Notes under the pieces: generated by a model
What the model was told of the DNA's origin: nothing
The model's input: the letters and a program-made list of their open reading frames with translations, nothing else
The model's database searches: none
In this document: positions 439-12,350 of the stretch, one piece after another
How positions within the stretch are numbered: position 1 is the first letter of the stretch
Layout of the letters: each line of letters opens with the position of its first letter
Assembly (NCBI GenBank): GCA_031255425.1
Contig: JAIRSN010000234.1
Span: 1-12,350 of the forward strand
Length of the DNA: 12,350 bases
Source: Dysgonamonadaceae bacterium
GTDB taxonomy: Bacteria; Bacteroidota; Bacteroidia; Bacteroidales; Azobacteroidaceae
Reading direction: 5' to 3'
Made by a program: the position numbers and the translations under genes

Positions 439-446
439 TACCTTTG
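439..446 (+). promoter_or_regulatory. metK promoter, -7 box TACCTTTG
   Basis: TACCTTTG matches the Bacteroidetes -7 consensus TAnnTTTG and lies just upstream of the SAM-II-like element. No clear TTTG-type -33 box is visible at the expected distance; the region upstream is an A/T run. Transcription would start near 452-455, giving a leader of roughly 135 nt that contains the whole aptamer. Confidence 0.6.
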
Positions 447-460
447 TCGCGGTATTAGAG

Positions 461-515
461 AGTGGACAGATTTGTAATGCTTGCAACCACAGAAAAAAAA
501 TGCTAAAAAATTCCG
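461..515 (+). ncRNA. SAM-II-like riboswitch aptamer in the metK leader
   Basis: The element has the parts of a SAM-II pseudoknot in the right order. P1 is GTGG at 462-465 with CCAC at 487-490. The first loop carries the conserved GATTT at 469-473. The 5' pseudoknot strand lies in TGCTTGCA at 478-485. A short A-rich linker follows, then TGCTAAAAA at 501-509. Pseudoknot pairing can form between GCA (483-485) and TGC (501-503), and between AAT (476-478) and ATT (510-512). SAM-II binds S-adenosylmethionine, the product of the gene downstream, so feedback control of metK is expected. The class is best known from Alphaproteobacteria, where it usually occludes the ribosome site. Here the aptamer ends about 72 nt before the ATG, so the switching part is not obvious. 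The assignment rests on remembered motifs, not on a covariance search. Confidence 0.8.
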
Positions 516-587
516 GTTACCCCATTTCAAATCTCCCGCCACATTACCATCCATAATAACAGTAAAATCTTTAAAAATTAATTAGAA

Positions 588-1856
588 ATGAGTTATTTAT
601 TTACCTCCGAATCCGTATCGGAAGGGCATCCCGACAAAGTAGCCGATCAGATTTCCGACGCGCTGCTGGACCAGTTTCTTGCCTACGATCCGGAATCCAA
701 AGTTGCATGCGAAACATTAGTAACCACCGGTCAGGTAGTGTTGGCCGGAGAAGTCAAATCCAAATCGTACATCGACATTCCCGAAGTAGCCCGGCGGGTG
801 ATAGAGCGAATCGGTTACACGAAAAGCGAATACCAGTTCGAGGCAAAGTCCTGCGGTATCCTTAGCGCCATCCACGAACAGTCGGGCGACATCAACCGCG
901 GCGTGGAACGGAAAGACCCGCTCAACCAGGGCGCCGGCGACCAGGGGATGATGTTCGGCTACGCAACGAAAGAAACCGCGAACTACATGCCGCTCGCCCT
1001 GGATTTATCCCACCAACTGCTGATTGAACTGGCGCATATCCGCAAACACGAAATCGCGTTGATGCCCTACCTTCGCCCCGATGCCAAATCGCAGGTGACC
1101 ATCCGTTACAACGACAGCGGAATCCCCGAAAAGATAGACACCATCGTCGTTTCAACCCAGCACGACGAGTTTATCCCCGGAGCAGACGAAGCGATGCAGG
1201 CAAAAATAGCGGAAGACGTCCGGACGATTCTGGTGCCGCGCGTAAAAGCGAAATACCCCGAATCGATACAGGTCCTGTTTGACAACGAGATAAAATACCA
1301 CGTCAACCCGACCGGGAAATTCGTTATCGGCGGCCCGCACGGAGACACCGGGTTGACCGGACGGAAAATCATCGTAGACACTTACGGCGGCAAAGGAGCG
1401 CACGGAGGCGGCGCATTTTCGGGCAAAGACCCTTCCAAAGTCGATCGTTCGGCAGCCTATGCCGCCCGTCACATCGCGAAAAACCTGGTAGCAGCCGGTA
1501 TTTCCGATGAGATATTGGTGCAAGTTGCCTACGCCATCGGGGTTGCCGAACCCATGAACATCTTTATCAATACGTACGGAAAGAGCAAAATCAACCTGAA
1601 CGACGGACAGATAGCGGAAAAAGTGGCGGCAATCTTCGACATGCGACCCAAAGCCATCGAAACCCGGCTGAAACTGCGTCATCCGATTTACCAGGAAACA
1701 GCCGCCTACGGTCACATGGGACGCCAACCGGAAACGGTAACAAAAACCTTTTCCTCCCGCTACGATAATGAGCCGTTCAAAGAAGTGACGGTCGAGTTAT
1801 TCACCTGGGAAAAGTTGGATTACGTAGATAAAATCAAGAAAACATTCGGAATCTGA
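588..1856 (+). CDS. metK: S-adenosylmethionine synthase
   Basis: This cytosolic enzyme makes S-adenosylmethionine from methionine and ATP, releasing phosphate and pyrophosphate. The 422-residue product is a full-length bacterial MetK. The N-terminal GHPDK motif (residues 13-17) binds ATP and Mg. The signature [12 protein letters not shown] is at 115-126, [13 protein letters not shown] at 248-260, and the P-loop-like [16 protein letters not shown] at 273-288. It is longer than the 384-residue E. coli enzyme, partly through small insertions in the middle and at the C-terminus, which I believe is normal for Bacteroidetes. The ATG at 588 is chosen because [17 protein letters not shown] matches family N-termini; no Shine-Dalgarno sequence is visible. 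The gene appears monocistronic, with a SAM-II-like aptamer in its leader and a hairpin after its stop. Confidence 0.97.
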
Positions 1857-6036: not shown

Positions 6037-6222
6037 GGCGCCGCAGGCGCTTTTATATTTTTGGGAGGCACGGCATATCGGTTTGGCTGCGGGTTATCAT
6101 CATCCTATACCTATATATATAAGGTGTAATGAAACAGTAAAAGCGGAAGCATCCGAAAACGTGCCGGAGTTAACATTTGCACTTTCGGAAAAACCCAAAA
6201 ATATAAAAGCGGCTGCGCCGCC
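6037..6222. repeat. MITE-like inverted repeat, arms of about 29 bp
   Basis: The right arm, 6194-6222, begins CCCAAAAATATAAAAGCG. The reverse complement of the left arm, 6037-6065, begins with the same 18 bases and differs at only two positions over 29. Inside are a shorter inverted pair (GGCACG at 6067-6072, CGTGCC at 6160-6165) and a central near-palindrome around the TA run at 6109-6126. I found no transposase frame. The layout, terminal arms around about 130 bp of non-coding DNA, resembles a miniature inverted-repeat element. Target-site duplications are not evident, so mobility is inference. Confidence 0.6.
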
Positions 6223-6370
6223 AAAAGCGGAAGCTCCGCTTTCGTGTTGGAGGTCTTTTTTGCAAAAGCGGAAGCTCCGCTTTCGTGTTGGAGGTCTTTT
6301 TCATAAAAGCGGAAGCTCCGCTTTCGTGTTGGAGATCTTTTTCATAAAAGCGGATACACCGCACCTCTTT
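6223..6370. repeat. 41-bp tandem array of short hairpins upstream of argR
   Basis: Three near-identical 41-bp units begin at 6223, 6264 and 6305, and a decayed fourth begins at 6346. Each starts with the hairpin AAAGCGGAAGCTCCGCTTT (8-bp stem, loop AGC), then CGTGTTGGAG and a T run. The decayed unit keeps AAAAGCGG but loses the rest. Related pieces (TATAAAAGCGGCTGCG) lie at about 6203 and 6376. The period is not a multiple of three, so the array is not a coding repeat. The T run is about 15 nt from the stem, too far for good intrinsic termination. The array lies upstream of the argR promoter, outside the predicted transcript. Confidence 0.85.
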
Positions 6371-6471: not shown

Positions 6472-6945
6472 ATGAAAACAAAAGAAGAACGATTATTAAA
6501 AATCACGGAACTGGTACGGAACAACTCCATCAACAACCAGGAAGAGTTATTGGTATTATTAAGTAACCACGGCTTTGAAATCACACAGGCAACCCTGTCG
6601 CGCGACATCAAACAATTGAAAATCATCAAATGCCCGGATGCCGGAGGAAGTTATATTTATACAATCCCGGGTGAATATGGATACCAGTCCAAACATCCGG
6701 ATATAAAAAAAGAAATGAGCGAACTGTCCGACCTCGGGTTCCTGTCCCTCGATTTTTCCGGCAACCTGGTCGTGATACGCACACGCCCGGGTTACGCGAT
6801 GGGCATCGCATCCGACATCGATAAACGATCGTCCGGCGCTATATTGGGCACAATTGCCGGCGACGACACGATTTTGTTAATCCCGAAAGAAGGATACAGC
6901 AGAATACAAGTTATCAAGACATTAAAAGAACTGAACATAAAATAA
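6472..6945 (+). CDS. argR: Arginine repressor ArgR
   Basis: ArgR senses L-arginine and controls arginine genes as a DNA-binding hexamer. The 157-residue length is standard. The N-terminal winged helix-turn-helix covers about residues 1-70, with the recognition segment QATLSRDIKQLKI at 39-51. The C-terminal domain (about 85-157) forms the trimer and binds arginine; its GTIAGDDT motif at 126-133 holds the Asp pair that contacts the ligand. An AAAGGA Shine-Dalgarno-like stretch at 6457-6462 lies 9 nt before the ATG, which is unusual here and supports this start. It is the first gene of the operon, and the acyltransferase follows after 1 bp. A possible ARG box overlaps the promoter, so self-control is likely. 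Confidence 0.95.
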   Translation: MKTKEERLLKITELVRNNSINNQEELLVLLSNHGFEITQATLSRDIKQLKIIKCPDAGGSYIYTIPGEYGYQSKHPDIKKEMSELSDLGFLSLDFSGNLVVIRTRPGYAMGIASDIDKRSSGAILGTIAGDDTILLIPKEGYSRIQVIKTLKELNIK

Positions 6946-6946
6946 G

Positions 6947-7501
6947 ATGAACAACGATATTTGTGTACTTATTGCCAACGAAAGTCATATCCGATACATC
7001 CCCACAATACTGAACACCATCGAAAAAGCCGCCAAAATCCGCGGAACCGGAATCGCCAAACGGACCCCCGAATACATCGAACAGAAAATGAAAGAAGGGA
7101 AAGCAATCATCGCGCTGGCAGGCGATACGTTTGCCGGGTTTTGCTACATCGAAAGCTGGGGCAACAAACAGTACGTGGCAAATTCGGGACTGATTGTAGC
7201 GGACGAGTTCCGGGGCAGGGGATTAGCGAAAGCAATCAAGCGGAAATCGTTTGAACTGTCGCGGGAGAAGTACCCCCATTCCAAGTTGTTCGGACTCACT
7301 TCCGGCGCAGCGGTGATGAAAATCAACACCGGGCTGGGATACGTCCCGGTCACCTTTGCCGAGCTGACAAACGACGAAGCCTTTTGGAGAGGCTGCCAGG
7401 GATGCGTCAATTACGATATATTGCAACGCACCGAACGGAGATATTGCATTTGCACCGCCATGTTATATGAACCGGAAAAAGAAAAATCACCTAAAAATTG
7501 A
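6947..7501 (+). CDS. GNAT-family acyltransferase, probable N-acylglutamate synthase
   Basis: The 184-residue protein has the GNAT fold: the acyl-CoA pyrophosphate-binding motif RGRGLA is at residues 89-94, preceded by the beta-strand ANSGLIVADEF. It lies 1 bp after argR and 5 bp before argG, and the window has no argA or argJ. As I recall, the homologous gene between argR and argG in Bacteroides thetaiotaomicron has been proposed from mutant fitness data to be the missing N-acylglutamate synthase, probably using succinyl-CoA. This gene most likely does the same first step, joining an acyl group to glutamate. The C-terminal part has four cysteines in a CxxC (150, 153) and CxC (167, 169) arrangement, unusual for a GNAT and possibly metal-binding. 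The choice of acetyl-CoA or succinyl-CoA cannot be read from the sequence. Confidence 0.8.
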   Translation: MNNDICVLIANESHIRYIPTILNTIEKAAKIRGTGIAKRTPEYIEQKMKEGKAIIALAGDTFAGFCYIESWGNKQYVANSGLIVADEFRGRGLAKAIKRKSFELSREKYPHSKLFGLTSGAAVMKINTGLGYVPVTFAELTNDEAFWRGCQGCVNYDILQRTERRYCICTAMLYEPEKEKSPKN

Positions 7502-7506
7502 AAATA

Positions 7507-8718
7507 ATGAACAAGCAAAAAGTAGTTTTAGCATACAGCGGAGGGCTGGATACCTCCTTTTGTGCCATGTATTTATCGCAGGAATTGGGCTATGAAGTAT
7601 ACACCGCGCTGGCGAATACGGGCGGCTTTTCCGAAGAAGAACTGAAGCAAACGGAGGAACGCGCCTGCCGGTTGGGAGCCGCCGGGCATGTGACGCTGGA
7701 CATTACGCAGGAATATTACGAGAAAAGCATCCGGTACATGATTTACGGGAATATCCTCCGCAACGGGACGTATCCCATATCGGTCAGTTCGGAACGTATC
7801 TTCCAGGCAATCGCCATCATCCGGTATGCGAAGGCGATCGGCGCAGACTATGTGGCGCACGGAAGCACCGGCGCCGGCAACGACCAGGTGCGTTTCGATT
7901 TGACCTTCGAAGTCCTGGCGCCCGAAATCGGCATCCTGACGCCCACCCGCGACCTGACCCTTACCCGCGGACAGGAAATCGATTACCTGAAAAAACACGG
8001 CTTCGAAGCCGATTTCGCCAAGATGGAATATTCGATCAACAAAGGGCTTTGGGGAACAAGCATCGGCGGGAAAGAAACCCTGCAACCGGAACAAACCCTG
8101 CCGGAAGAAGCCTATCCCTCGCAACTTCAGGAAAAAGGCGAAGAAACGCTGACCCTTTCTTTCTCGGAAGGCGAAATAGCGGCGGTCAACGGCGTGGCTT
8201 ACGCAGACAAGGTCCGGGCGATTCAGGAAGTTGAAAAGATTGCTTCCCGCTATGCCATCGGACGCGACATGCACGTCGGCGACACGATTGTCGGCATCAA
8301 AGGCCGTGTCGGATTCGAAGCGGCGGCGCCGATGGTCATCATCAATGCCCACAAAATGCTGGAAAAACATACCCTCACCAAGTGGCAACAATACTGGAAA
8401 GAACAGGTAAGCAACTGGTACGGAATGTTTCTGCACGAAGCGCAGTACCTGGATCCGGTCATGCGCGACATCGAGGCGTTTCTCCGCAACTCGCAGCGGA
8501 ATGTGACCGGAACGGTGATCGTCAAACTGCATCCCTACCGTTACACGCTGGTGGGAGTGGAGAGCGACTTCGACCTGATGAAAACCGATTTCGGCGACTA
8601 TGGGGAAATCAACAAGGCCTGGACGCCGGACGATGTAAAAGGGTTTACCAAAATCCTGGCTGTCCCGGCGGGAATTTATCACACCGTACAGAAGAAAAAC
8701 AACCGGAATGAAAATTAA
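7507..8718 (+). CDS. argG: Argininosuccinate synthase
   Basis: The enzyme joins citrulline and aspartate, using ATP, to make argininosuccinate, the step before arginine release by ArgH. I start it at the ATG at 7507, giving 403 residues beginning MNKQKVVLAYSGGLDTS. A TTG three codons upstream (7498) also opens the frame but overlaps the preceding stop and adds nothing conserved. The PP-loop ATP motif AYSGGLDTS is at residues 9-17. The citrulline and aspartate binding segment HGSTGAGNDQVRFD is at 118-131, followed by the synthetase domain and a C-terminal oligomerisation helix. It is 5 bp after the acyltransferase and overlaps argC by 11 bp, so translation of the two is probably coupled. Confidence 0.96.
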   Translation: MNKQKVVLAYSGGLDTSFCAMYLSQELGYEVYTALANTGGFSEEELKQTEERACRLGAAGHVTLDITQEYYEKSIRYMIYGNILRNGTYPISVSSERIFQAIAIIRYAKAIGADYVAHGSTGAGNDQVRFDLTFEVLAPEIGILTPTRDLTLTRGQEIDYLKKHGFEADFAKMEYSINKGLWGTSIGGKETLQPEQTLPEEAYPSQLQEKGEETLTLSFSEGEIAAVNGVAYADKVRAIQEVEKIASRYAIGRDMHVGDTIVGIKGRVGFEAAAPMVIINAHKMLEKHTLTKWQQYWKEQVSNWYGMFLHEAQYLDPVMRDIEAFLRNSQRNVTGTVIVKLHPYRYTLVGVESDFDLMKTDFGDYGEINKAWTPDDVKGFTKILAVPAGIYHTVQKKNNRNEN

Positions 8719-9679
8719 AGCAGGCATCATCGGCGGCGCCGGTTACACTGCCGGGGAATTGATCCGTTTGCTGGTACATCATCCGGACGTCGCAATCGAA
8801 TTTGTACACAGCAGCAGCAACGCCGGAAACCGGATCACGGACGTTCACGGCGGGTTGGTCGGGGAAACAGACCTGTCGTTTACCGGTTCGTATGATTTGC
8901 ATGTCCCGGATGTGCTGTTTCTCTGTTCCGCGCATGGCGACAGCCGGAAGTTTATGGAAACCCACCGGTTGCCGGAGTCGCTCAAAGTGATCGACCTCTC
9001 GATGGATTACCGTCACCGGGCGGGTGCGGAAGGATTTGTCTACGGGCTGCCGGAATTAAACCGGGCGGACATCCGGAAGGCGCAATACCTTGCCAATCCG
9101 GGCTGTTTTGCAACGGCGATCCAGTTGGCGTTGTTGCCCTTGGCGGCCAACCGCCGGCTGAAAAACGAAATCCATGTAAATGCCATTACCGGTGCAACCG
9201 GAGCCGGCGTGAAGCCGGGCATCACGACGCATTTCTCGTGGCGCGACAACAACCTTTCCGTCTACAAGGCTTTCGAACACCAGCACCTGCAAGAGATTCG
9301 CGAGTCGCTGAGCCGGCTTCAACCGGATTTCGGGAGAGAAATCAACTTTATTCCGGTAAGGGGAAACTTCTCCAGGGGCATTTTCGCCACGCTTTATACC
9401 GAATGTGAAAAATCTCCGGACGAAATACAGGCGCTTTATTCGGATTACTATCAGGACGCCGCCTTTACCCACGTCACGGACAGGCAGGTAGATTTGAAAC
9501 AGGTCATCCAGACAAACAAATGCCTTTTGCACCTGGAAAAACACGGCAACAAACTGCTGATTGTTTCGGTTATCGACAACCTGTTGAAAGGAGCTTCCGG
9601 CCAGGCAGTCCAGAACTTCAACCTGATGTTTGGTTTGGACGAAAAAGCGGGATTGAACTTAAAACCGGCAGGATTCTGA
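8708..9679 (+). CDS. argC: N-acyl-gamma-glutamyl-phosphate reductase
   Basis: ArgC reduces the N-acylglutamyl phosphate to the semialdehyde with NADPH, the third step toward ornithine. The 323-residue protein has the N-terminal NADP-binding motif GIIGGAGYTAGEL (residues 6-18). The catalytic cysteine is Cys133 in ANPGCFAT, and the family His-rich motif HQHLQEI is at 201-207. The stretch FIPVRGNFSRGI near the C-terminus replaces the shorter form of enterobacterial enzymes, and I believe it is typical of Bacteroidetes. The ATG lies inside the end of argG (11-bp overlap), and MKIKAGIIGGAGY matches the family start. In Bacteroides the pathway uses succinylated intermediates, so the true substrate may be N-succinyl rather than N-acetyl. 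Confidence 0.95.
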   Translation: MKIKAGIIGGAGYTAGELIRLLVHHPDVAIEFVHSSSNAGNRITDVHGGLVGETDLSFTGSYDLHVPDVLFLCSAHGDSRKFMETHRLPESLKVIDLSMDYRHRAGAEGFVYGLPELNRADIRKAQYLANPGCFATAIQLALLPLAANRRLKNEIHVNAITGATGAGVKPGITTHFSWRDNNLSVYKAFEHQHLQEIRESLSRLQPDFGREINFIPVRGNFSRGIFATLYTECEKSPDEIQALYSDYYQDAAFTHVTDRQVDLKQVIQTNKCLLHLEKHGNKLLIVSVIDNLLKGASGQAVQNFNLMFGLDEKAGLNLKPAGF

Positions 9680-9712
9680 TGATTCATCACTTACCATTTA
9701 AACTCCATTTAC

Positions 9713-10831
9713 ATGAACTTATTTAATGTATATGCCCGTTGGCGGATTGAGCCGGTCCGGGCGCAGGGATGCAGACTGTATGACAAAGACGGAACTGAAT
9801 ACCTGGATTTCTACGGCGGACACGCCGTTATTTCCATCGGGCATTCGCATCCGCATTACGTTGAGGCAATTACAAACCAGTTGAACAAGATTGGCTTTTA
9901 TTCCAACTCCGTGCAAATAGCCTTGCAGGAAGAATATGCGGAGAAGCTGGGAAAGCTGTCCGGTTACCCCGGATATTCCCTGTTTATGGTCAATTCGGGC
10001 GCCGAAGCAAACGAGAACGCCCTGAAATTAGCCTCGTTTTACAACCGGAGGAAGAAAATCGTCGCCTTCCGGCACGCCTTCCACGGAAGGATGTCTGCCA
10101 CGGTCCGGGCGACCGATATTCCGAAATATTGGGCGCCGGTTAATGAAAATTTAGAAGTTATTTTCTTACCTTTGAACGACGTTCCCGCCGTTCGGGAAGT
10201 CCTGAGCCGGGAAGACGTTTCGTCCGTCATTGTTGAAGGGATCCAGGGCATAGGCGGAATTATTGTTCCCGATCCGGATTTCTTGCAGGAATTGAGCCGG
10301 GTGTGCGAAGAAACGGATACGGTGTTGATCCTGGATGAAATCCAGTCGGGTTACGGGCGATCGGGGAAGTTTTTTGCGCACCAGTATGCCGGCATCCGCC
10401 CGGACATTATCACGATTGCCAAGGGAATGGGCAACGGGTTTCCGGTTTCGGGCGTGTTGATTTCCCCCAAATTCGAAGCCGTAGAAGGAAGGCTGGGGAC
10501 CACATTCGGCGGAAATCATTTGGCATGTGCGGCATCTCTCGCCGTTCTGGAGGTGATTGAAGAAGAAAAGTTGATCGAAAATGCAGCGGAAACCGGCGAA
10601 TACCTGATGTCCGGACTGAAGAAAGTACCCGGCATCAAAGAGGTACGGGGAAAAGGATTGATGATCGGGCTGGAATACGAAAAACCCATCAAACCGCTGA
10701 GAGACCGGCTGCTTTTCGAGAAGAAGGTGTTTACGGGAGCCACGGGAACACACGTTTTCCGTCTCTTACCGCCGCTCTGCGCAAGCAAAGAGATAGCGGA
10801 TGAATTGATAAAAAAAATAAATGAATTATAG
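9713..10831 (+). CDS. argD: N-acylornithine aminotransferase
   Basis: This PLP enzyme transfers an amino group from glutamate to the N-acylglutamate semialdehyde, giving N-acylornithine. The 372-residue protein is a class III aminotransferase. It shows NSGAEAN at 94-100 for cofactor phosphate, HAFHGR at 121-126 with the aromatic ring stacker, Asp208 in ILDEIQSGYGR, and the Schiff-base Lys237 in TIAKGMGNG. It is somewhat shorter than the about 400 residues of many ArgD proteins, mainly at the N-terminus, but no core motif is missing. It follows argC after 33 bp, the largest gap in the operon, and proC follows 12 bp later. Succinylated substrate is likely from the taxon, not from residues I can see. 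Confidence 0.94.
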   Translation: MNLFNVYARWRIEPVRAQGCRLYDKDGTEYLDFYGGHAVISIGHSHPHYVEAITNQLNKIGFYSNSVQIALQEEYAEKLGKLSGYPGYSLFMVNSGAEANENALKLASFYNRRKKIVAFRHAFHGRMSATVRATDIPKYWAPVNENLEVIFLPLNDVPAVREVLSREDVSSVIVEGIQGIGGIIVPDPDFLQELSRVCEETDTVLILDEIQSGYGRSGKFFAHQYAGIRPDIITIAKGMGNGFPVSGVLISPKFEAVEGRLGTTFGGNHLACAASLAVLEVIEEEKLIENAAETGEYLMSGLKKVPGIKEVRGKGLMIGLEYEKPIKPLRDRLLFEKKVFTGATGTHVFRLLPPLCASKEIADELIKKINEL

Positions 10832-10843
10832 TCTTAATTTCTT

Positions 10844-11641
10844 ATGGTAGTAACGATTATTGGAGGCGGAAATATGGGAAGCGCCATTGCCCGCGGGTTA
10901 GTTCAGGGGAGTGTTTTCAGGCCGGGAGACATTACGGTAGTGGATATTTCGGAAGCGCCGTTGAAGGCGTTGCGGGATTTCAATCCCGTTATCCGGACGG
11001 CGTTGAACAAGTACGACAGTGTGGAAAATGCCGATCTTATCATCCTCGCCGTCAAGCCGTGGCTGGTGAAGGAAACGATTGCGAATATCCGGTCCGGGTT
11101 GGATTATTCCAAACAAATCGTCGTATCCATCGCCGCGGGCGTAAGCATCCGGGACCTGGGCGAAATGCTGCATAAACCGGACAGCGAAGCCGCCTTGCCC
11201 GCCCTGTTCCGGGTGATTCCCAACACGGCAATTTCCATCCGGCAGAGCGTCAACCTCGTTGCTACGGAGAATGCCTCTCCCGAACAAAAGCAACTGATCC
11301 TCAAAATCTTTGGCGAGTTGGGATACGCTACCCTGCTCGACGAAAGCAAACTAAACGCAGGGACCGCCCTCGCTTCCTGCGGGATTGCCTATCTGTTCCG
11401 CTACGTCCGGGCGGCGGTGTTAGCGGGAGTCGAAATGGGATTTTATCCGAAAGAAGCACAAACCTTAGTTGTGAAAACCATGTTGGGCGCAGCCTCCCTG
11501 CTGGACGAAACACAAGAAAATCCCGAAGCAGAAATCGACAAAGTAACTACTCCGGGAGGTATCACCATCAAGGGACTGAACGAACTGGAAACCCACGGTT
11601 TTTCCGCCGCGATTATCAAAGCGATGAAAGCAAGCCGCTAA
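10844..11641 (+). CDS. proC: Pyrroline-5-carboxylate reductase
   Basis: ProC reduces pyrroline-5-carboxylate to proline with NAD(P)H, the last step of proline synthesis. The 265-residue length is normal. The N-terminal Rossmann motif IIGGGNMGSAIARGL is at residues 5-19. The C-terminal helical dimer domain carries the family signature TTPGGITIKGLNELE at 235-249. It is the sixth and last gene of the operon, 12 bp after argD. Placement next to argD fits the shared glutamate and ornithine semialdehyde chemistry of the arginine and proline routes, and the same order is known in Bacteroides. No good terminator is visible after it; a run of eight T at 11650-11657 has no clear stem before it. Confidence 0.96.
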   Translation: MVVTIIGGGNMGSAIARGLVQGSVFRPGDITVVDISEAPLKALRDFNPVIRTALNKYDSVENADLIILAVKPWLVKETIANIRSGLDYSKQIVVSIAAGVSIRDLGEMLHKPDSEAALPALFRVIPNTAISIRQSVNLVATENASPEQKQLILKIFGELGYATLLDESKLNAGTALASCGIAYLFRYVRAAVLAGVEMGFYPKEAQTLVVKTMLGAASLLDETQENPEAEIDKVTTPGGITIKGLNELETHGFSAAIIKAMKASR

Positions 11642-12168: not shown

Positions 12169-12350
12169 GGGGTATGTCCCTGCGCTCTTGTGGGACGTCC
12201 CCGCGCTCTTGGGGGACATACCCCAAGCTTCGGGGGACATACCCAAAGCCCTGGGGGACATACCCCAAGCCCTGGGGGACATACCCGCGCTCTTGGGGGA
12301 CATACCCAAAGCCTTGGGGGACATACCCAAAGCCTTGGGGGACATACCCA
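12169..12350. repeat. 21-bp tandem array of GGGACATACCC cores, runs off the window
   Basis: The near-palindromic core GGGACATACCC recurs at 12213, 12234, 12255, 12276, 12297, 12318 and 12339, always 21 bp apart. A variant, GGGACGTCCC, is at 12192, and an inverted copy, GGGTATGTCCC, is at 12170-12180. Spacers between cores are about 10 bp and of few types: AAAGCCTTGG, a CCAAGCCCTGG-like form, and GCGCTCTTGG. Because 21 is a multiple of three, several frames stay open on both strands and mimic a heptapeptide repeat protein. I treat this as a non-coding tandem repeat, with the coding reading as a weak alternative. It continues past 12350. Confidence 0.85.

Follow-up and report, generated by a model that had tools for sequence, protein, structure and literature searches.

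The metA element, the alpha-proteobacterial form of SAM-II (RF00521), was also reported from the Bacteroides group, with Bacteroides thetaiotaomicron in a figure (Corbino 2005, PMC1273637), and "SAM-II long loops" (RF01726) were described from Bacteroidetes and marine samples (Weinberg 2010, PMC2864571, Table 1); these papers, like the others below, are cited from excerpts of their text. SAM-II switches of alpha- and beta-Proteobacteria are mostly tied to terminators (PMC2258182), the majority of SAM-II has been called transcriptional (PMC6061858), and the metX SAM-II riboswitch is used as an example of direct occlusion (PMC10907184). For metZ of Sinorhizobium meliloti, SAM binding was predicted to form a Rho-independent terminator, as is proposed below for the genus of our bacterium, and prediction of a SAM-II-driven antiterminator did not succeed for metA of the same organism (PMC9373788). 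As SAM-II in Bacteroidetes is already published, the aptamer presented here is no novelty, and interest centres on its expression platform. No description of an anti-aptamer for Bacteroidetes SAM-II was found in open-access PMC full text, supplements lying outside that scope. The first-pass annotation of the DNA had implied that the host group was unusual; the papers of 2005 and 2010 do not support this, and RF01726 proved common in the order, with a match in 266 of 393 genomes (263 above the cut-off).

The window, that is the whole stretch of 12,350 nucleotides analysed here from a Dysgonamonadaceae bacterium, was submitted in full to cmscan. A plus-strand match to RF01726 was obtained at 456-516 (55.3 bits, E 1.4e-8), above the gathering score of 44 and covering positions 1-60 of the 60 in the model; in this, and in its bacteroidete host, the aptamer resembles the published SAM-II long loops (PMC2864571). 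It shares with alpha-proteobacterial SAM-II (PMC1273637) the single stem with a pseudoknot and the position upstream of methionine/SAM genes, but differs from it in its target, metK, in having no terminator and in the absence of an RF00521 match up to E 10. Nor was SAM-V, a related pseudoknot SAM aptamer of marine alpha-proteobacteria and bacteroidetes (PMC6061858), among the eight other matches listed for the whole window up to E 10. The covariance check proposed in the first-pass annotation, which had named RF00521 and SAM-V, was thus positive for SAM-II through RF01726 only.

All the elements that had been picked out by eye were located on the plus strand. The sequence TACCTTTG (439-446, read directly) is presumably a Bacteroidetes-type promoter element of the TAnnTTTG motif named in that annotation, and a promoter-like element stands at a similar distance ahead of the aptamer in many relatives. 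The transcript would then begin with a 5' tail at 451-461, the start being placed from the promoter. By direct reading, the P1 stem pairs GTGG 462-465 with CCAC 487-490, the loop GATTTG occupies 469-474 and the elements TGCTTGCA (478-485) and TGCTAAAAA (501-509, with TGCTAAA at 501-507) follow; TTGCAACC lies at 481-488. Stem, loop, TTGCAACC and TGCTAAA are the elements of RF01726. The P1 5' strand together with GATTTG (462-474) is called the aptamer 5' half below. A simple longest-helix count gave 3 bp for the distal pseudoknot of the window; by the same count, own strands were no better than swapped ones in the genus (2.58 vs 2.56, p 0.53) and better in 66 other families (3.41 vs 3.14, p 0.002). 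The ATG of metK, encoding methionine adenosyltransferase (588-1856; NCBIfam TIGR01034, 503.4 bits, cut-off 309.4), is found on the same strand 71 nt after the end of the Rfam match. Judged from its sequence, the leader is a SAM-II riboswitch ahead of metK in a bacteroidete, as had been claimed, and its aptamer would be expected to bind SAM. All results on this switch are computed, from the aptamer to the covarying anti-aptamer pairing and the terminator-like hairpin of the relatives.

RF01726 was matched in 65 of 97 relatives, in 27 of the 38 genomes of the window's genus and only once in the 77% complete genome of the window itself. Related metK leaders with an Rfam match keep both the stem and TGCTAAA; leaders conserving neither, which the first-pass annotation had named as grounds for giving up the switch, did not occur among them. 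By metK, the named genomes that come closest belong to Bacteroidales bacterium OttesenSCG-928-M11, Parabacteroides, Tannerella and Tannerellaceae MAGs, names that point to Bacteroidales as the order; the nearest relative of the window is L055 (G013), with 91% metK identity. Five of the 11 genus genomes without RF01726 have a metK match (G003, G005, G010, G022 and G028); the other six have none in their assemblies. No match to any Rfam family up to E 1 was found in the six metK leaders of these five genomes (L214-L218 and L220). By eye, only about 20 to 37 nt separate the TTTG of the promoter from the ATG in L216, L217, L218 and L220, so that the riboswitch module can be absent as a block. G003 and G022 are small genomes (1.0-1.2 Mb, 99% complete). 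In the leader of the second metK copy of G018 (L219), whose contig starts shortly before it, Rfam was likewise not matched up to E 1, and an apparent terminator remnant, CTGATGAATTATCGGATTTTTTT, is present.

Two further features of the relatives were observed. A tRNA-Asp (gtc) ends a few bases before the aptamer in two genus relatives (L023, 1418-1493, and L034, 319-394); no TAnnTTTG promoter was seen between tRNA and aptamer there, so the switch may be co-transcribed with the tRNA and processed from it. L058 resembles these loci by eye, and ARAGORN found no tRNA in it. Right after TGCTAAA, where the distal pseudoknot strand usually lies, 18 of 26 genus loci, but not the window, carry a hairpin AACC..GGTT, a feature shared by 1 of 66 other families.

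For the window leader (451-587), energy minimisation predicts a fold of -18.5 kcal/mol that consists of a pairing between the aptamer and a downstream plus-strand segment at about 523-548, hereafter the anti-aptamer, which was delimited from this fold, from duplex prediction and from swaps within the genus. CATT 523-526 pairs with AATG 476-479, CAAATCT 528-534 with AGATTTG 468-474 and, as closing pairs, TACC 545-548 with GGTA 451-454, whereas the partner of GTGG is CCGCC 536-540 in the minimum-energy fold or CCAC 539-542 in the duplex. The 5' tail takes part in the fold only through GGTA and G460. The anti-aptamer is thus predicted to form an alternative pairing that excludes the aptamer, and corresponds to the part "not visible by eye" that the first-pass annotation had suspected. 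The support that it draws from the window alone is modest: the fold has a z of only -1.44, with 19 of 200 shuffles folding as well, and the duplex between aptamer and anti-aptamer reaches z -2.61 (p 0.04) without the 5' tail and p 0.083 with it. None of 25 other genus aptamers pairs better than the window's own with the window leader, and only 2 of 25 other genus leaders beat this leader in pairing with the window aptamer; when tail plus aptamer was used, 19 of the 25 paired better than its own. The case for the anti-aptamer does not rest on the significance of this single locus.

The related leaders compared came from loci that comprised the 30 best-scoring ones from the 97 relatives and the 30 best-scoring from the order (26 of the latter new), the other 36 matches among relatives outside the window's own genome, and 40 further loci hand-picked for unseen families and genera among the matches listed. 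Of 172 loci, 124 were kept and 48 dropped, namely L021, L064, L065, L066 and 44 named metK loci lacking the aptamer pattern, which fits only 36 of 80 named metK loci. L183 was the one dropped of the 40 later loci, and L067, whose match is below the cut-off, had been left out beforehand.

In the leaders listed, the aptamer 5' half has a near-complement in its own leader, about 15-45 nt downstream of TGCTAAA. This complementarity was compared with dinucleotide shuffles, the first 10 leader bases being omitted so that the pseudoknot strand could not count. For the aptamer 5' half, 62 order loci had a mean z of -1.67 (reversed control -0.01) and 35 named loci one of -1.82 (reversed -0.06); individual loci often fall short of significance, p at most 0.05 being reached in 27/62 and 17/35. 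The 27 genus loci gave z -0.87 with the aptamer alone (reversed -0.31) and z -3.28 when the 5' tail was added (20/27; reversed -0.46).

In a second type of analysis, the own leader of each locus was compared with the leaders of other loci, using one locus per family (66 families, excluding that of the window). Own duplexes averaged -14.84 and swapped ones -12.33, giving z -9.1 and the lowest p that 10,000 permutations allow. The loop alone gave z -7.0 and the P1 strand alone z -2.7; among the controls, the aptamer 3' half remained at z -0.8 and the reversed sequence, at z -1.6 (p 0.056), came near significance. With the 5' tail included, swapping in the genus (26 loci) yielded z about -7.9, p again being as low as the 20,000 permutations allow; the aptamer without tail reached p 0.023, and 12 hand-picked flavobacterial loci, L143 included, yielded z -3.1 (reversed -1.2). 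These values measure the locus-specific part only, since swapped leaders are also complementary to a conserved aptamer, and swapping lowers the effects of shared ancestry and base composition without abolishing them. These results point to an anti-aptamer that is conserved and covaries with its own aptamer across the sampled families.

In most genus leaders, the anti-aptamer is joined to a terminator-like hairpin. Hairpins with a T-rich tail and an energy of -4 kcal/mol or lower were detected in 21 of 27 genus leaders, or 20 of 26 distinct organisms (L068 is from the same organism as L017), compared to 9% of shuffles; they are mostly of the kind TTCTGATA-loop-TATCAGA. The exceptions are L001, L023, L029, L035, L047 and L055, and in L055 the 5' tail pairing is kept and the hairpin is weak (-2.2). 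Outside the genus, hairpins of this strength (10/62 and 5/35; shuffles 7% and 6%) are not clearly above shuffles. The anti-aptamer ends in the left arm of the genus hairpin, and this arm forms about 8 to 10 bp with the transcript 5' tail. Both helices were evaluated in 21 leaders, of which 20 were genus loci and one was L053 from the same family, the six exceptions being left aside. These leaders gave 18 distinct rows; the rows were anchored by predicted duplexes and therefore lean towards the structure. In the antiterminator helix formed with the tail, 86.7% of cells were paired, 4 pairs were changed on both sides (11 such cells) and the outermost pair failed in 13/18 rows; its covariation score was reached by 0/500 shuffles, and all slid versions scored far lower. 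In the terminator hairpin, 87.5% of cells were paired; both sides had changed in 5 pairs, and the outermost pair failed in 14/18 rows. When the leaders were folded (26 genus loci plus L053), the terminator was formed in 3 of 21 free leaders (L046, L049 and L058, the last with no aptamer pairing in its fold) and in 21 of 21 leaders in which the aptamer was masked, in agreement with mutual exclusion of anti-aptamer pairing and terminator. By their anatomy, most genus leaders would be SAM-OFF attenuators.

No such device was found in the window, where the usual place of hairpin and T-tract corresponds to about 543-575 on the plus strand. No intrinsic terminator was detected on the plus strand of 400-700, which includes the whole interval from aptamer to ORF, and the window scored 0 in the leader comparison. 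A terminator of the window's own was accordingly rejected as a candidate; the best remnant seen by eye, TTAC..GTAA, has no T-tract. We read this as a lineage that has probably changed or lost its output step.

The model that we favour, and hold to be likely, is that the SAM-II switch turns metK off at plentiful SAM by way of the anti-aptamer and not by direct cover of a ribosome site. At low SAM, the segment around 523-548 would pair with the aptamer 5' half, that is the P1 5' strand and the pseudoknot loop, and hold the leader in an ON shape. When SAM is present, the aptamer would fold and release the anti-aptamer. In most genus relatives the freed segment would run into the left arm of the intrinsic terminator and transcription would stop before metK. 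As the terminator is missing in the window, the free anti-aptamer must act in another way there, Rho loading on its C-rich sequence being the likeliest, unless regulation has weakened; the OFF direction and this last step are what the model suggests for the window. A broader version, which we put forward as speculation that may well prove wrong, would have SAM-II act indirectly throughout Bacteroidota via a conserved anti-aptamer covarying with its own loop and P1 strand, the output devices differing (an intrinsic terminator in the genus; elsewhere, the window included, either the start region or a C-rich, gated Rho site), so that the window would have been caught switching from intrinsic to Rho-dependent output with the sensor unchanged. 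A conserved anti-aptamer with a seemingly interchangeable output device appears to be new as far as the literature was searched. It provides a testable common logic for how Bacteroidota SAM-II switches reach their gene, and the genus relatives that have terminators allow natural comparison, their output device being different behind the same sensor. The RF01726 model, which describes the aptamer only and leaves both the anti-aptamer and the genus terminator outside, could be extended simply on this basis.

For the metX SAM-II riboswitch the mechanism described is direct occlusion, with the pseudoknot lying over the ribosome-binding site (PMC10907184); such occlusion is very improbable at this locus, where the first-pass annotation had already disfavoured it. 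The aptamer ends 71 nt before the ATG, and the distance from GCTAAN to the ATG is 50 to 292 nt (median 82) in the 124 loci. In S. meliloti metA the Shine-Dalgarno sequence lies inside the switch (PMC9373788), whereas none was seen by reading before the window ATG, nor was a ribosome site found in or next to the pseudoknot 3' strand. In this respect the annotation was right that the platform departs from the textbook, and its interpretation of the switch as a whole is partly supported. To our knowledge, Bacteroidota generally do not use Shine-Dalgarno sequences, which makes direct occlusion of a ribosome site unlikely as a rule in this group. Control of translation could also be achieved at a distance, if the freed anti-aptamer or nearby leader paired with the metK start (for instance TTCCC with ATGGGA) and blocked initiation. 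We regard this as rather unlikely, and the evidence for leader pairing with the start is mixed. In the 66 families the leader is complementary to its start from -3 to +12 (z -3.0, reversed -0.2) and from -15 to +15 (z -5.5, reversed -1.9), and CCC-bearing leaders go with ATGGG starts (19/33 vs 9/33, Fisher p 0.012); yet in the named set the same comparisons gave z -0.4 (reversed -1.1), z -2.4 (reversed -2.0) and p 0.10. For the anti-aptamer itself, without overlap of segments, z was -3.15 against -15..+15 in 61 order loci and -3.35 against ATG..+30 in 35 named loci, but with one locus per family the z of -1.8 against -15..+15 was outdone by the reversed control (-2.5), and the signal in genus loci was weak (p 0.06). 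An initial z of -4.4 for anti-aptamer against start was set aside because in short leaders the segments shared up to 8 nt. Moreover, the window start is ATGAGT and its leader contains no CTCAT to pair with it. As the anti-aptamer part fails its reversed control and the wider leader-start signal partly holds, translation stays a rival only.

A Rho-dependent stop would be the last step of the favoured model in the window's lineage: folding with SAM would free a C-rich, G-poor leader for Rho, and without SAM the anti-aptamer pairing would hide it. This remains tentative, although it fits somewhat better than a translational block. The putative rut-like loading tract, at 520-569 on the plus strand, has an excess of 16 C over G in 50 nt, the highest of 26 genus leaders (the next has 10), in a locus that has no terminator. 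C exceeds G in 63 leaders of the 66 families, and upstream of the anti-aptamer, where complementarity does not force the composition, C is 0.28 and G 0.10, compared to 0.11 and 0.09 downstream, with a duplex prediction defining the "upstream" boundary. Control of Rho by riboswitches is moreover an established kind of regulation (Hollands 2012, as cited in PMC10907184). On the other hand, the C content of the anti-aptamer is no higher than that of a plain complement of the aptamer, one genome amounts to one event, and L029 and L035, genus leaders that also have no strong terminator, are not C-rich. The window could instead have kept its SAM-II aptamer after losing the control of metK, the anti-aptamer being a remnant. 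Such decay, to which we give about the same low credence as to the translational block, would account for the missing terminator and the weak 5' tail pairing, and the five genus genomes with metK and no RF01726 match point the same way; but the window aptamer is above the Rfam cut-off with its core intact, and its fit with its own leader, surpassed by 0/25 aptamers and 2/25 leaders of the genus, speaks against it.

Elsewhere in the window, an arginine/proline block extends over 6472-11641. Its argC and proC score above curated cut-offs and its argG-like and argD-like ORFs below them; the argR-like ORF reaches 130.0 bits for a cut-off of 130.45, and one ORF of the block has no NCBIfam match. 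Before the argR-like ORF, at 6222-6354, a 41-bp tandem repeat is present in 3.2 copies, each with the palindrome-like AAAGCGGAAGCTCCGCTTT. Repeats of 21 bp (GGGGGACATACCC..) occupy 12169-12350 up to the end of the window, and a minus-strand frame over them reads repeated GYVPQGF.
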